Below are positions 37,803 through 50,694 of a DNA stretch of 64,000 nucleotides, piece by piece. Both the position numbers and the translations under genes were made by a program. Location of the stretch: NCBI GenBank assembly GCA_930633495.1, contig CAKNFJ010000001.1:2167001-2231000 (forward strand). The letters run 5' to 3'. Source of the DNA: Hyphomicrobiales bacterium (GTDB taxonomy: Bacteria; Pseudomonadota; Alphaproteobacteria; Rhizobiales; Beijerinckiaceae). Below the pieces are notes generated by a model that was not told the origin of the DNA, searched no databases, and saw only the letters and a program-made list of their open reading frames with translations. Within the stretch, counting starts at the first letter, position 1. Each line of letters starts with the position of its first letter.

Positions 37803-38204
37803 TCAGGCCGCGGGCGGCGCGCGCGAATGCGCAAGGCCGATGGCGAAGCGATGCTCCAGCCCCTCGGCGATCGGCTGCTGCAAGGACAGGCGGACGACGG
37901 AACGCCCGGCAAGCGGCAGATCCCCCGATGGCGGACCGGCGAGGACCGGATTGAGCGGGCAGCCCTTGCAATGAGCCAAGTCGGCGGCCGGAGCAGGTGT
38001 CCCATCTTCGGGAACCGGCATCCCTGAACAGAGGACCGCGCCGTCCTTCGTCGCAAACGCGGCCAGCGCCGGTGCGGGCACCAGTGCTAGGGCGAGGACA
38101 GCCCAGGCATAAGCGACGGCCAGCCAGACTCCGAGCCCGGAGCGGCGCAGACCGTCGAGAAGAGTGGCACGAGCCGGCATGGCGGCACATGGCGCCGCTT
38201 CCAC
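37803..38204 (-). CDS. DUF2946-like protein, CutF-type candidate
   Basis: A 133-residue (or 125 from Met9) protein with one hydrophobic segment at about 26-49 that can serve as signal peptide. The mature part carries Cys59, a CxxC pair 'HCKGCP' (Cys79, Cys82) and ends 'SRAPPAA'. This combination of a cysteine pair and a Pro-Pro end is typical of DUF2946 proteins, among them CutF of Rhodobacter, whose own translation controls the downstream copper genes. Here the downstream gene is a PCu(A)C chaperone. The copper role is inferred from context. Confidence 0.72.
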   Translation of the reverse strand: MEAAPCAAMPARATLLDGLRRSGLGVWLAVAYAWAVLALALVPAPALAAFATKDGAVLCSGMPVPEDGTPAPAADLAHCKGCPLNPVLAGPPSGDLPLAGRSVVRLSLQQPIAEGLEHRFAIGLAHSRAPPAA

Positions 38205-38258
38205 GGCTTCGTCAAGCAGCGCATTGCCGCATCCTTGCCGGAGCGCAAAGAGGCCTCT

Positions 38259-38275
38259 GGAGAATATTATTCTCC
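38259..38275. promoter_or_regulatory. Perfect 17-base palindrome, candidate operator
   Basis: GGAGAATA-T-TATTCTCC lies 55 bases before the copper unit (minus) and 31 bases before a possible -35 box of the plus-strand unit. The protein that binds it is unknown; it is not a match to the CueR or Irr motifs that I recall. Confidence 0.5.
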
Positions 38276-38285
38276 GATCGAGAGT

Positions 38286-38298
38286 TTCTTTAAAAGAA
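38286..38298. promoter_or_regulatory. Second palindrome, TTCTTT-A-AAAGAA
   Basis: A perfect inverted repeat with 6-base arms, 10 bases to the right of the 38259-38275 palindrome. It may be a separate operator or part of an AT-rich divergent promoter. Confidence 0.35.
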
Positions 38299-38306
38299 CA
38301 AAGCGA

Positions 38307-38336
38307 TTGACAAAGAGGACGTCTGCCGCCAGATTA
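38307..38336 (+). promoter_or_regulatory. Candidate sigma-70 promoter for the leader-metNIQ unit
   Basis: TTGACA at 38307-38312, 18 bases, then AGATTA. The -35 is perfect and the -10 is weak. It lies about 118 bases before the leader frame start, leaving a long 5' RNA that suits attenuation. Confidence 0.4.
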
Positions 38337-38453
38337 GAGACCGTTCCTGGAGCGATCCGGGCACCGCGGAGATTTGAGCGAGCAGCTTGCGCCGCGTCAC
38401 CAAACGCTAAAGCGCCACGACTGGGTCGTGGGCTCCAGATCGAGGAGACTGAC

Positions 38454-38522
38454 ATGACCGTTGCGAAAACGAGCCGAAGCCACATTCGCTTCCGCCGAAT
38501 GCTCTGCTGCTGTCGACGCTGA
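38454..38522 (+). CDS. Candidate leader peptide with three consecutive cysteines
   Basis: A 22-residue frame beginning MTVAKTSRSHIRF and ending RRMLCCCRR. GAGGAG stands 6 bases before the ATG, a strong ribosome site for so short a frame. The TGC-TGC-TGT run at codons 18-20, close to the stop, is what a cysteine-sensing attenuator would need: ribosomes would pause there when charged Cys-tRNA is low. Hairpins that exclude each other begin directly after the stop. Downstream lie two small genes and metNIQ. Its translation and role are inferences. Confidence 0.6.
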   Translation: MTVAKTSRSHIRFRRMLCCCRR

Positions 38523-38583
38523 GATCGTCAGGCCAAGAGGCCGATCCCCCCGATCGTTTCGACGAACGCCGCAACATGCGGCG
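38523..38583 (+). promoter_or_regulatory. Candidate attenuator: mutually exclusive hairpins after the leader
   Basis: Structure 1 (38523-38546): GATC-GGCC pairs with GGCC-GATC. Structure 2 (38542-38556): CGATC/GATCG around five C, followed by TTTC. They share bases 38542-38546, so only one can form. A third hairpin, CGCCGC/GCGGCG (38567-38583), lies just before the next ribosome site. No long T run is seen, so control could be of translation or of Rho. Confidence 0.45.
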
Positions 38584-38595
38584 AAAGGCAGAACC

Positions 38596-38844
38596 ATGTC
38601 CCAGCTTCATTCCCTTCCCGGCCGGGCTCGCCCGGCGCAGCAAGCGTATGTCATCGAGCTTGGCGAGGCGCAGGTTGGCCTCGTCAGCCGCCGGGCCGAC
38701 GAGCGCGACTTCACCTTCATCGCCGCCTCCCCCGCGTTCCGGACGCTGGACGGGCAGCGTTTCGCCAGCCCCGGCGCAGCCGAGAGCGCGGCACGGCGGC
38801 TGGCGCGGCCGTACCGCCACGGCCCGCTGCGCCTTGCCTCGTGA
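38596..38844 (+). CDS. Small protein of unknown function upstream of metNIQ
   Basis: An 82-residue soluble protein with AAAGGCAG before its ATG. It shows an alternating beta-like region ('QQAYVIELGEAQVGLVSR') and an Arg/Ala-rich C-terminal helix. No cysteine and no known motif. It lies between the Cys leader and a second small gene, 7 bases apart, and so is likely part of the same transcript as metNIQ. Not a usual member of methionine transport operons. Confidence 0.55.
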   Translation: MSQLHSLPGRARPAQQAYVIELGEAQVGLVSRRADERDFTFIAASPAFRTLDGQRFASPGAAESAARRLARPYRHGPLRLAS

Positions 38845-38851
38845 GACCGCG

Positions 38852-39025
38852 ATGCGGTTCCTGTCGTCGCTCTGGAACGCCGTTGCGGCCTGGTTCAACC
38901 AGGCAGTCCCGGCCAGCTTCGATCCGCTCGACACGACGCGTGCGGAGGACGGGCGCCGCTCGGTCCATGACGTGACCATCGAGCAGCTCGGCATCGCGCA
39001 CTGGTCCTGCCACACGCATTTCTGA
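38852..39025 (+). CDS. Small protein of unknown function directly before metN
   Basis: A 57-residue frame starting at ATG 38852. The N-terminus 'MRFLSSLWNAVAAWFNQAV' is an amphipathic or weakly membrane-seeking helix, and the end reads 'HWSCHTHF', a Cys/His cluster that could bind a metal. It ends 4 bases before the metN ATG, so the two are probably translationally coupled. The family is unknown to me. Confidence 0.5.
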   Translation: MRFLSSLWNAVAAWFNQAVPASFDPLDTTRAEDGRRSVHDVTIEQLGIAHWSCHTHF

Positions 39026-39029
39026 GGAC

Positions 39030-40139
39030 ATGATGAACGCCCCCGTCAAACCCGGCGCCTTGAGCGTCGGTGCGTTGCCCATTGCCATCGCGGAAGCCGC
39101 GATCCGCTTCGAGCAGGTCGGCAAGACCTATGCGGCGCGCAGCGGCCAGCAGCCGGTCAGCGCTCTCGCCGGCATCGATCTCGATGTGCCGGCGGGCAGC
39201 ATCCTCGGCGTGATCGGCCGCTCCGGCGCCGGCAAGTCGACGCTGATCCGCCTCGTCAACGGGCTGGAGCGTGCCACGGCAGGCCGCATCCTGATCGAAG
39301 GCAAGGAGGTCACGCACCTCACCGAAGCCGGCTGGCGCGCCGAGCGCCGCCGCATCGGCATGATCTTCCAGCATTTCAACCTTTTGTCCTCGCGCACCGT
39401 CTTCGACAATGTCGCGCTGCCGCTGGAGATCGCCGGCGCGTCGCGGGCAGAGATCACCGCCAAGGTCGAGACGCTGCTCGAGCTCGTCGGCCTCGCCGAC
39501 AAGAGCGCGCGCTACCCGGCCGAGCTTTCGGGCGGGCAGAAGCAGCGCGTCGGTATCGCCCGCGCACTGGCCACCGACCCCAAGGTGCTGCTCTGCGACG
39601 AAGCGACCTCGGCGCTCGACCCGGAAACGACCCGTTCGATCCTGGCGCTGCTGCGCCAGGTCAATCGCGAGCTCGGCATCACCATCCTGCTGATCACGCA
39701 CGAAATTCCCGTCATCAAGGAGATCTGCGACCGCGTCGCGGTGATCGAGGGCGGGCGCATCGTCGAGCAGGGCGAGACCTTCTCGGTCTTCACCAACCCG
39801 CAACACCCGACGACGGCACGCTTCGTCGAGGCCGTGACCGGTGTCGAGCTGCCCGAGCATCTGGCCCACCGCATCCGCAAGGAGGCGCGCGCCGGCGACA
39901 ATATCGTGCTGCGCATCACCTTCATCGGCGAGAACGCCACCGCTCCGGTGATCAGCCGGCTGAGCGCGGTCGTCGGCGTCGACGTCAACATCCTGGCCGG
40001 GCGGATCGACGCCATCGCCGGCCAGCCCTTCGGCAGCCTGCTCGTTTCGGTGCCCTCGCGCGCGCCGGAAAGCGACGCCGTGCTCGGCGCCCTGAAGAGT
40101 CTCGGGCTCAAGGCGGAGGTCATCGGCCATGTCTCCTGA
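39030..40139 (+). CDS. metN: Methionine ABC importer ATP-binding protein MetN
   Basis: A 369-residue ATPase that powers D/L-methionine uptake. Walker A 'GRSGAGKST', signature 'LSGGQKQRVGIARAL', Walker B 'VLLCDEATSALDPET', and the H-loop 'LITHEI' are all intact. The C-terminal NIL domain (about 295-369) gives inhibition by intracellular methionine. The ATG at 39030 or 39033 can start it. Its stop overlaps the metI start by 11 bases. Confidence 0.95.
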   Translation: MMNAPVKPGALSVGALPIAIAEAAIRFEQVGKTYAARSGQQPVSALAGIDLDVPAGSILGVIGRSGAGKSTLIRLVNGLERATAGRILIEGKEVTHLTEAGWRAERRRIGMIFQHFNLLSSRTVFDNVALPLEIAGASRAEITAKVETLLELVGLADKSARYPAELSGGQKQRVGIARALATDPKVLLCDEATSALDPETTRSILALLRQVNRELGITILLITHEIPVIKEICDRVAVIEGGRIVEQGETFSVFTNPQHPTTARFVEAVTGVELPEHLAHRIRKEARAGDNIVLRITFIGENATAPVISRLSAVVGVDVNILAGRIDAIAGQPFGSLLVSVPSRAPESDAVLGALKSLGLKAEVIGHVS

Positions 40140-40794
40140 ACTCATCCGCCTGATCTGGCAGTCGACCCTCGACACGCTCGCCATGGTCGCCGTCTCGGCC
40201 GGGATCGGAACGCTGCTCGGGCTGCCGCTCGGCGTGTTCCTCGCCACCAGCAAGCGCGGCGAGCTCTTCGCGGCGCCGGCCGCCAACGCCCTGCTCGGCG
40301 TGCTGGTCAACGCCACCCGCTCGACGCCCTTCATCATCCTGGTCGTCGCGATCATCCCGTTCACACGGCTCCTCGCCGGCACCTCGATCGGAACGGCCGC
40401 GGCCATCGTGCCGCTGACCGTCGCGGCGACGCCCTTCATCGCAAGGCTGATCGAAGGCGCGGTGCGCGAGGTCGACCAGGGCCTGGTCGAGGCTGCTCGC
40501 GCCATGGGCGCGACGCCCGTCCAGATCGTGCGCAAGGTGCTGGTGCCCGAGGCCCTGCCGGCGATCGTGCTCGGCCTGACGCTCGCCGTGGTCAGCCTGA
40601 TCGGCTTCTCGGCCATGGTCGGCGCGGTCGGCGGCGGCGGGCTCGGCGACCTCGGCATCCGCTACGGCTACCAGCGCTTCATGCCCGATGTGATGGCGAC
40701 CGTCGTCGCCGTGCTCATCGTCCTCGTCCAGCTCGTGCAGAGCTTCGGCGACCGCCTGGCGCGCCGCCTCAACAAGCGCCTGCGCCACGCCTGA
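40129..40794 (+). CDS. metI: Methionine ABC importer permease MetI
   Basis: A 221-residue inner-membrane protein with five helices and the typical EAA coupling loop 'VEAARAMGATPVQIVRKVLVPEALP' spanning about 123-147. Length matches MetI. The gene overlaps metN and is followed 37 bases later by metQ, forming the metNIQ transport operon. Confidence 0.95.
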   Translation: MSPELIRLIWQSTLDTLAMVAVSAGIGTLLGLPLGVFLATSKRGELFAAPAANALLGVLVNATRSTPFIILVVAIIPFTRLLAGTSIGTAAAIVPLTVAATPFIARLIEGAVREVDQGLVEAARAMGATPVQIVRKVLVPEALPAIVLGLTLAVVSLIGFSAMVGAVGGGGLGDLGIRYGYQRFMPDVMATVVAVLIVLVQLVQSFGDRLARRLNKRLRHA

Positions 40795-40831: not shown

Positions 40832-41629
40832 ATGACGACTTCTTTCAGCCGCCGCACCGCGCTTGCCGCCGGCTTCACCCTGGCGCTCGCCGCCGGCCCC
40901 GCCCTCGCCCAGGGACAGGTGCTCCGCATCGGCGTCACACCCGGCCCGCATGCCGAGATCCTGGAGAAGGTGAAGCCGCTCGCGGCGCAGAAGGGCCTCG
41001 ATCTCAAGATCACCGAGTTCTCCGATTATGTCGTGCCGAACCAGGCTCTCGACGCCGGCGAGCTGGAGGCCAACTCCTTCCAGCACGAGCCCTATCTCGA
41101 CAATCAGGTGAAGGATCGCGGCTACAAGATCATCAAGGTCGGCCTGACCGTGAACTTCCCGATCGGCATCTACTCGTCGAAATACAAGAGCTGGGCCGAG
41201 ATCCCGGACGGCGCCACCATCGCCATCCCGAACGATCCGACCAATGGCGGGCGCGTGCTGCTGCTCCTGCAGGACAAGGGCGTCATCAAGCTGAAGGACG
41301 GCGTCGGCTTCAAGCCGACCGTCGCCGACATCACCGCCAACCCCAAGAAGTTCAAGATCATCGAGCTGGAAGCAGCCCAGACGCCGCGTTCGCTGGCCGA
41401 CGTCGCCGCTGCCGCGATCAACACCAACTACGCCGTCGACGCCAAGATCGACCCGGCCTCCGCCATTCTGCGCGAGGACGCCAAGGGCCCCTATGTCAAC
41501 CTGATCGCCGTCCGTGCCGCCGACAAGGACAAGCCCTGGGTCAAGACGCTGGTCGAGGTCTATCACAGCCCGGAGGTCAAGAGCTTCATCGCCGAGCGCT
41601 ACAAGGGCGCCGTGCTCGCCGGCTGGTAA
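40832..41629 (+). CDS. metQ: Methionine-binding protein MetQ (NlpA family)
   Basis: A 265-residue periplasmic binding protein. The signal 'SRRTALAAGFTLALAAGPALA' has two arginines and could use Tat or Sec; no lipobox cysteine is present, so it is soluble and not a lipoprotein like the E. coli one. The mature protein starts 'QVLRIGVTPGPHAEILE', with 'DYVVPNQALDAGELEANSFQH' following, classic for the family. AAGGAA is before the ATG. A strong terminator follows. Confidence 0.95.
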   Translation: MTTSFSRRTALAAGFTLALAAGPALAQGQVLRIGVTPGPHAEILEKVKPLAAQKGLDLKITEFSDYVVPNQALDAGELEANSFQHEPYLDNQVKDRGYKIIKVGLTVNFPIGIYSSKYKSWAEIPDGATIAIPNDPTNGGRVLLLLQDKGVIKLKDGVGFKPTVADITANPKKFKIIELEAAQTPRSLADVAAAAINTNYAVDAKIDPASAILREDAKGPYVNLIAVRAADKDKPWVKTLVEVYHSPEVKSFIAERYKGAVLAGW

Positions 41630-50487: not shown

Positions 50488-50533
50488 TCAAGCGCTGTGA
50501 TGCGGGTGCAGGCCAAGGCCGCACCGCGTTCCA

Positions 50534-50616
<83 letters not shown>

Positions 50617-50694
50617 CGCGGACGAGGTTAGGCGCGGCGTCGCCGCTTGGCAACCGGCTCGCCAAGAAACGATCCAAACGGGAATAAGGGGGGT

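Follow-up and report, generated by a model that had tools for sequence, protein, structure and literature searches.

A SAM-II-like aptamer and a cysteine-codon leader in series upstream of an alphaproteobacterial metNIQ operon: a possible two-input sulfur sensor

The closest described counterparts of the element analyzed here include the Cys leaders of mycobacteria, on which experimental work exists, and E. coli tnaC, in which, as here, a leader frame is followed by a Rho-type region and no intrinsic terminator. For SAM-II riboswitches (RF00521, SAM_alpha), the P1 helix, the pseudoknot and the GAUUUGA / CUUGC / GCUAAA core given in the accessible text of PMC1273637 all recur in the present element. 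The SAM_alpha targets named in the accessible part of PMC4239095 are metY, hom, metA, metX, metC and metW; metNIQ is not among them. The SAM-II element of S. meliloti metA closes its ribosome site on SAM, as stated in the available part of PMC9373788; its AUG1 and AUG2 are in frame with a terminator between them, and it shares with the present element a ribosome site at the 3' end with translation beginning farther downstream. The cys operons of mycobacteria, P. acnes and B. longum have polycysteine leaders that likewise combine a Cys-codon run near the stop with sulfur genes and no terminator, according to the accessible text of PMC1262725, where tnaC is also named. Another leader frame with Cys codons from Alphaproteobacteria is uORFC-8-2, located before cysS in Rhodobacterales (available part of PMC8632094).

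The window, a stretch of 64,000 nucleotides from a Bosea-like Hyphomicrobiales bacterium (assembly GCA_930633495.1, contig CAKNFJ010000001.1, positions 2,167,001 to 2,231,000), contains a metNIQ operon for which a cysteine attenuator with two competing hairpins had been predicted from the sequence. The Cys-codon leader before metNIQ withstood analysis, while the competing hairpins were not conserved. The plain attenuator is replaced here by a proposed two-input element with a SAM-II-like aptamer, absent from the original prediction, directly 5' of the leader ribosome site.

Elements upstream of metNIQ

On the + strand, promoter-like boxes, the aptamer, a GAGGAG ribosome site, a 22-codon frame, a 73-base spacer, small genes 1 and 2, and metN, metI and metQ follow one another. 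The promoter-like pair (38307-38335, + strand) was assigned by eye and consists of TTGACA (38307-38312) and CAGATT (38330-38335); a consensus promoter scan did not list it and returned a single hit, on the - strand. The near-palindrome GTTTCTTTAAAAGAAC (38284-38299) is located 5' of the -35-like box. Its core CTTTAAAnGAAC was found upstream of 28 of 35 metN copies of the genus, in none of 19 other copies of the genus and in none of 72 in other taxa. It is a possible operator, which would constitute a third input.

The aptamer occupies positions 38356-38439 (+). Its RF00521 match (38356-38430) scored 29.9 bits (E 6.6e-5, 501 bases searched) where the gathering cut-off is 36, so that it falls outside RF00521 by the Rfam threshold and belongs to it by the P1 helix and the pseudoknot with conserved core. 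SAM_alpha and SAM-II were the only known Rfam leaders in this 5' region, both below threshold. Elsewhere in the window, a TPP riboswitch was detected at 50517-50621 on the - strand (70.6 bits, cut-off 54.3). P1 is formed by 38365-38369 and 38392-38396, P2a by 38385-38388 and 38410-38413, and P2b by 38380-38383 and 38432-38435, and a hairpin, P3, is inserted between the 3' strands of P2a and P2b (38415-38421 paired with 38425-38431; all + strand).

A model of the aptamer and hairpin (R1), built from 26 sequences, matched positions 38362-38439. Alignment of 102 matches to R1 gave 101 distinct rows. The pseudoknot, itself not part of R1, was paired in 98.8% of cells for P2a and in 72.6% for P2b, and 18 rows carry a two-sided change at one P2b pair. 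For the structure as a whole, 92.0% of cells were paired, compared with 33.9-54.1% for slid versions, and none of 500 shuffles was as good. Both the pseudoknot and the inserted hairpin covaried in this set; within the genus, the aptamer was too conserved for covariation testing. The inserted hairpin, CCACGACnnGGTCGTGG or a sequence near it, was present in 23 of 25 same-genus copies; L022 and L025 lack it, and their leaders begin 18 bases after GCTAAA. Judging by this anatomy, the aptamer would respond to SAM.

In the hairpin-bearing variant, that response could be of either sign. If the P2b strand served as an anti-SD of the leader, SAM binding would be expected to free rather than close the leader ribosome site; no covariation between this strand and the site was detected (p 0.32), and both points weigh against the two-sensor model. 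Tandem SAM-II-type aptamers were observed at six loci, where the first copy is mostly followed by a U-rich run and then by the hairpin-bearing variant. The genome that contains the window carries two further sub-threshold SAM-II copies, L061 (C1:1431825-1431907) and L062 (C1:1429073-1429148), both without a Cys leader; the frames behind them presumably encode a sulfonate-type binding protein and an ABC ATPase.

The leader ribosome site GAGGAG (38442-38447) ends six bases 5' of the ATG at 38454 (+). The 22-codon frame, MTVAKTSRSHIRFRRMLCCCRR, extends over 38454-38522 with its TGA stop at 38520-38522, and codons 18-20 are the Cys codons TGC TGC TGT (38505-38513). The frame, ribosome site, Cys codons and stop were thus all recovered where they had been predicted in the window. 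Behind the leader, two uncharacterized small frames, small gene 1 (82 aa, 38596-38844) and small gene 2 (57 aa, 38852-39025, no Pfam match), precede the importer genes, whose predicted identity is borne out by their domains (all + strand): ABC_tran and NIL in metN (39030-40139; TIGR02314 MetN 399.8 bits, under the cut-off of 499.7), BPD_transp_1 in metI (40129-40794) and Lipoprotein_9 in metQ (40832-41629; TIGR00363 239.5 bits, cut-off 228.85).

Distribution of the leader and the genes behind it

When 41 genomes were searched at the DNA level, the region turned up in the genome of origin and in all 24 same-genus genomes included, and in each of these 25 the aptamer core was followed by a leader of 21-26 codons. 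Comparison with relatives, proposed together with the original prediction, showed that the frame, its ribosome site and the Cys codons are kept. In all 25 leaders, the N-termini vary and the Cys-rich end is maintained (CCCRR, CRCRR, GCCRR, GCCCRL, FCCRR and similar). Cys is third from last in 24 of them, the exception being L022, whose CCC lies farther from the stop; one leader contains a single Cys. In a wider set of 42 distinct peptides, which includes matches of a Cys-pattern scan, Cys was third from last in 41, and 40 had at least two Cys among the last six residues. The locus thus carries an SD-led short frame with its regulatory codons kept across species, as sought in attenuators. Among 20 other aptamer copies fetched from the genus, the leader contained Cys in 14 and lacked it in 6; these six, together with the aptamer score under the Rfam cut-off, count against the two-sensor model. 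A second leader type, LLRLSAFLRxxRC followed by a stop, recurs after three genus aptamer copies and, as we read it, resembles actinobacterial leader peptides.

R1 matches were found in 53 of 61 genomes of the genus, in 83 of 397 genomes of the order (25 of 141 genera) and, at E <= 0.01, in 75 of 337 genomes of the class. The loci examined comprised the 30 returned per search plus 20 genus, 40 order and 20 class loci from the score lists; some near-duplicates and the weakest matches were omitted, and Cys played no part in the choice. A frame rule blind to Cys, which took the first SD-led ATG or GTG, was run on 208 candidate aptamers. Of the 164 hairpin-type candidates, 134 have a short frame (5-60 codons) behind them, 18 a long frame and 12 neither. 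Beyond the genus, the frames behind the aptamer include MNIATTSSLPAFSEMVHGACRMSCCCCCC, MIVVSGMDIEKPDGKMCCGCCCC and MKNATMDQLLILAKMPCGMRASCCCSC, each ending at a stop. The 134 short frames correspond to 126 distinct peptides and to 81 clusters, which are not fully independent.

In these 81 clusters, Cys accounted for 144 of 640 residues in the last eight positions and for 32 of 1173 elsewhere in the leaders; 1000 Markov shuffles yielded 35.0 +- 5.8 terminal Cys, with a maximum of 52. The other reading frames gave 27/559 (+1) and 7/559 (+2). Outside the genus alone, 89 of 411 terminal residues were Cys, versus 22.8 +- 4.5 in shuffles. Cys occurred within the last eight residues in 70 clusters and was absent from them in 11, another point against the two-sensor model; the last Cys was third from the end in 33. 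A separate scan of named genomes for the aptamer core and a Cys run, with no frame requirement, returned 33 loci. The SAM-II core was present at 30 of these, each with its Cys run in frame in an SD-led ORF. The other three loci (Cloacimonadota, Varibaculum and Bacteroidales) had neither a SAM-II core nor an in-frame SD-led Cys run. Named bearers are Bosea, Labrys, Vineibacter, Ferrovibrio, one Azospirillaceae and one Rhodospirillales assembly, and further bearers are Rhizobiales and Alphaproteobacteria assemblies without genus names. In one Methylobacterium bin the leader is of the Bosea type, perhaps through mis-binning.

For the genes behind the leaders, 45 of 52 listed ORFs were scanned against Pfam; the gene choice was automatic, and some frames are probably wrong. 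ABC_tran was found in 21, NIL in 16, flavin reductase and NMT1_2 in three each, and luciferase-like monooxygenase and Lipoprotein_9 in two each; single ORFs matched unrelated families, e.g. chaperonin and EAL. Other genes in this position presumably encode sulfate-binding proteins and a GAF protein resembling methionine sulfoxide reductase. Copies without a Cys leader stand mostly before proteins that we take to be metZ, metX, metY and siroheme synthase (cysG); the exceptions are a presumed MetN-like protein at one locus and presumed sulfate-binding-like proteins at two. Canonical SAM-II copies in the order mostly precede metZ and have a terminator-like U run. Leaders tend to precede metN and genes of sulfur uptake and scavenging, which suggests that uptake genes sense both SAM and cysteine, and that SAM is the sole signal for biosynthetic genes.

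Relatives of small gene 1 were identified by a motif script behind the leader at 66 of 126 leader loci, and in many lineages this family lies between the leader and the sulfur genes. The protein had no Pfam or NCBIfam match and 36 homologues, the named ones being hypothetical proteins, mostly of Bosea. The window copy contains no Cys and no internal Met. In 42 representatives of the family, no Cys and 11 internal Met were counted among 3139 residues, compared with 0.83% Cys and 1.98% Met in the window proteins. Such a sulfur-poor composition is as expected for a sulfur-starvation regulon.

Candidate mechanism and alternative explanations

According to the original prediction, two mutually exclusive hairpins share bases 38542-38546. 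Both can be drawn (38523-38527 with 38542-38546, and 38542-38546 with 38552-38556), but each is intact only in the window and fully paired in none of the eight closest relatives, and they were rejected as a conserved switch. Compared with shuffles, the stretch that holds them showed no extra folding stability (z -1.41, with 19 of 200 shuffled versions equally good). Other pairings were kept. Hairpin 1 (38511-38564, +) joins UGUCGA of the last Cys and the Arg codon (38511-38516) with UCGACG (38559-38564); in the nine nearest sequences, its stem was kept throughout, with 6/6 pairs in eight and 5/6 in one and with U-G to U-A changes. The inner stem, GGCC (38531-38534) with GGCC (38539-38542), was likewise kept in 9/9. 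Hairpin 2 (38567-38583, +), 5' of the small gene 1 ribosome site, had 6/6 pairs in five and 4-5 of 6 in four of these sequences (mean z -0.79, 41 loci). In the minimum-energy fold, UCUGCU in the Cys codons (38503-38508) is joined with GGCAGA in the small gene 1 ribosome site (38587-38592), a proposed closing stem spanning 38503-38592 (+).

From these elements the following mechanism is proposed. The aptamer, whose anatomy is described above, would govern translation of the 22-codon frame according to SAM. When Cys-tRNA is scarce, the ribosome would stall at the conserved Cys codons, a few codons before the stop. In the last and least certain step, ribosome-free Cys codons would pair with the small gene 1 ribosome site through UCUGCU and GGCAGA, with hairpins 1 and 2 forming the bridge between them, and would thereby keep the operon's first gene closed. 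A ribosome that has stalled at these codons would leave the site open. If SAM closes the leader ribosome site, as at S. meliloti metA, full expression of the importer would require low SAM together with low cysteine.

The proposed stem between the Cys codons and the following ribosome site received moderate support. When leader segments and ribosome sites were swapped between loci, native pairs were more stable (-9.19 vs -8.39, p 0.011, 41 clusters), also within the genus (p 0.020, 18 clusters); these segments had been refined after a first test, which gave p 0.0098 overall, 0.11 for the genus and 0.07 for the rest. Among 25 distinct genus metN copies, none of 20000 swaps was as good, but the copies are close relatives. 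Against the pairing stand the swap test in other taxa (p 0.145, 23 clusters) and the predicted accessibility of the next ribosome site, which did not change between a free and a stalled leader (p 0.35 and p 0.23). Leader tail and ribosome site paired barely above shuffles (z -0.30 +- 0.14). Overall, a two-input sulfur sensor whose output is exerted by Cys-codon and ribosome-site pairing appears to have an even chance of being correct.

The + strand of 38200-38900 yielded no intrinsic terminator, which makes a trp-type output unlikely; at other loci, terminators were judged by reading the sequences only. The same two sensors may instead act through Rho, as in E. coli tna: Rho would load on the C-rich spacer once the leader ribosome leaves, and a ribosome stalled at the Cys codons beside the stop would mask the loading site. 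This output is a real if tentative possibility. The lack of a terminator agrees with it, and between the leader stop and the next gene the C-over-G excess was 0.132 (41 loci), compared with 0.018 in 159 control 5' regions (p 2e-8), so that a C-rich, G-poor stretch does lie past the leader stop; C richness, however, is neither a test nor a proof of Rho action, and this output would leave unexplained why stems that involve the Cys codons and the ribosome site after the leader are kept. The same idea has been put forward for the mycobacterial Cys leaders, as given in the accessible text of PMC1262725.

Other explanations concern what the leader senses, or whether it senses anything. A pause could be caused merely by the rare codons CGA and UGU near the stop, and the leader would then respond to slow decoding or to arginine: Arg makes up 25% of the last eight residues and 13% elsewhere, and CGA is used for 55 of 159 terminal Arg residues but for just 59 of 1175 Arg residues in window genes. 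Terminal Cys codons are TGT in 105 of 144 cases, against 10 of 116 in 39 window genes. The preference for these two codons also speaks for the two-sensor model; it would suit selection either for slow decoding or for pairing of the RNA, and it makes the stalling step directly testable. A leader of this kind is nevertheless unlikely, since Cys is enriched 8-fold and Arg just 1.9-fold, five loci have long Cys runs with little or no terminal Arg, and the downstream genes are mostly sulfur-related. The Cys-rich basic C-terminus kept in the genus would also suit a small gene with an active peptide product, such as one that binds thiols or metals. Across the lineages of the 81 clusters, however, the leaders have nothing in common in sequence beyond terminal Cys and Arg, which renders this explanation improbable; all leader loci were found via the aptamer and hence always lie behind one. 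Nine of the 81 clusters have no Cys anywhere, as a random short frame behind a riboswitch might, but conservation in 25/25 genus genomes, the terminal Cys excess and the 30/30 in-frame runs contradict chance, which is very hard to credit. It is highly probable that the frame is a functional Cys-codon leader.

Extended to the Alphaproteobacteria, a natural two-metabolite RNA gate is mildly favored: the SAM-II variant would gate a cysteine-sensing leader, which in turn would gate sulfur importers and scavenging genes, with a sulfur-free small protein as the first gene product, while biosynthetic genes would mostly have the riboswitch alone. The repeated combination of the aptamer with unrelated peptide sequences points to selection for the combination.

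Relation to described systems

The window leader would stall from lack of Cys-tRNA, whereas tnaC stalls via the nascent peptide and tryptophan. From RF00521 the window element differs by the hairpin inserted in the 3' part of the pseudoknot and by the Cys-rich short frame that follows. No cysteine codons are mentioned for the S. meliloti metA element in the available part of PMC9373788, and no riboswitch is reported for the polycysteine leaders in the accessible text of PMC1262725, which concerns another phylum and other target genes. According to the available part of PMC8632094, uORFC-8-2 has cysS as its target, two Cys codons at positions 14-15, an intrinsic terminator and no riboswitch; the window frame precedes metNIQ with no + strand terminator and is not a member of that family. 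The accessible part of PMC10117765 adds no such leader.

In the open-licence papers searched, no description of a SAM-II aptamer combined with a Cys leader was found. Routine annotation likely misses both elements, the window aptamer because it is under the Rfam cut-off and the frames because of their extreme shortness. A pathway is generally taken to be sensed by either a riboswitch or an amino-acid leader peptide; here the two stand in series, which suggests that sulfur importers could read the SAM and cysteine pools from one transcript.
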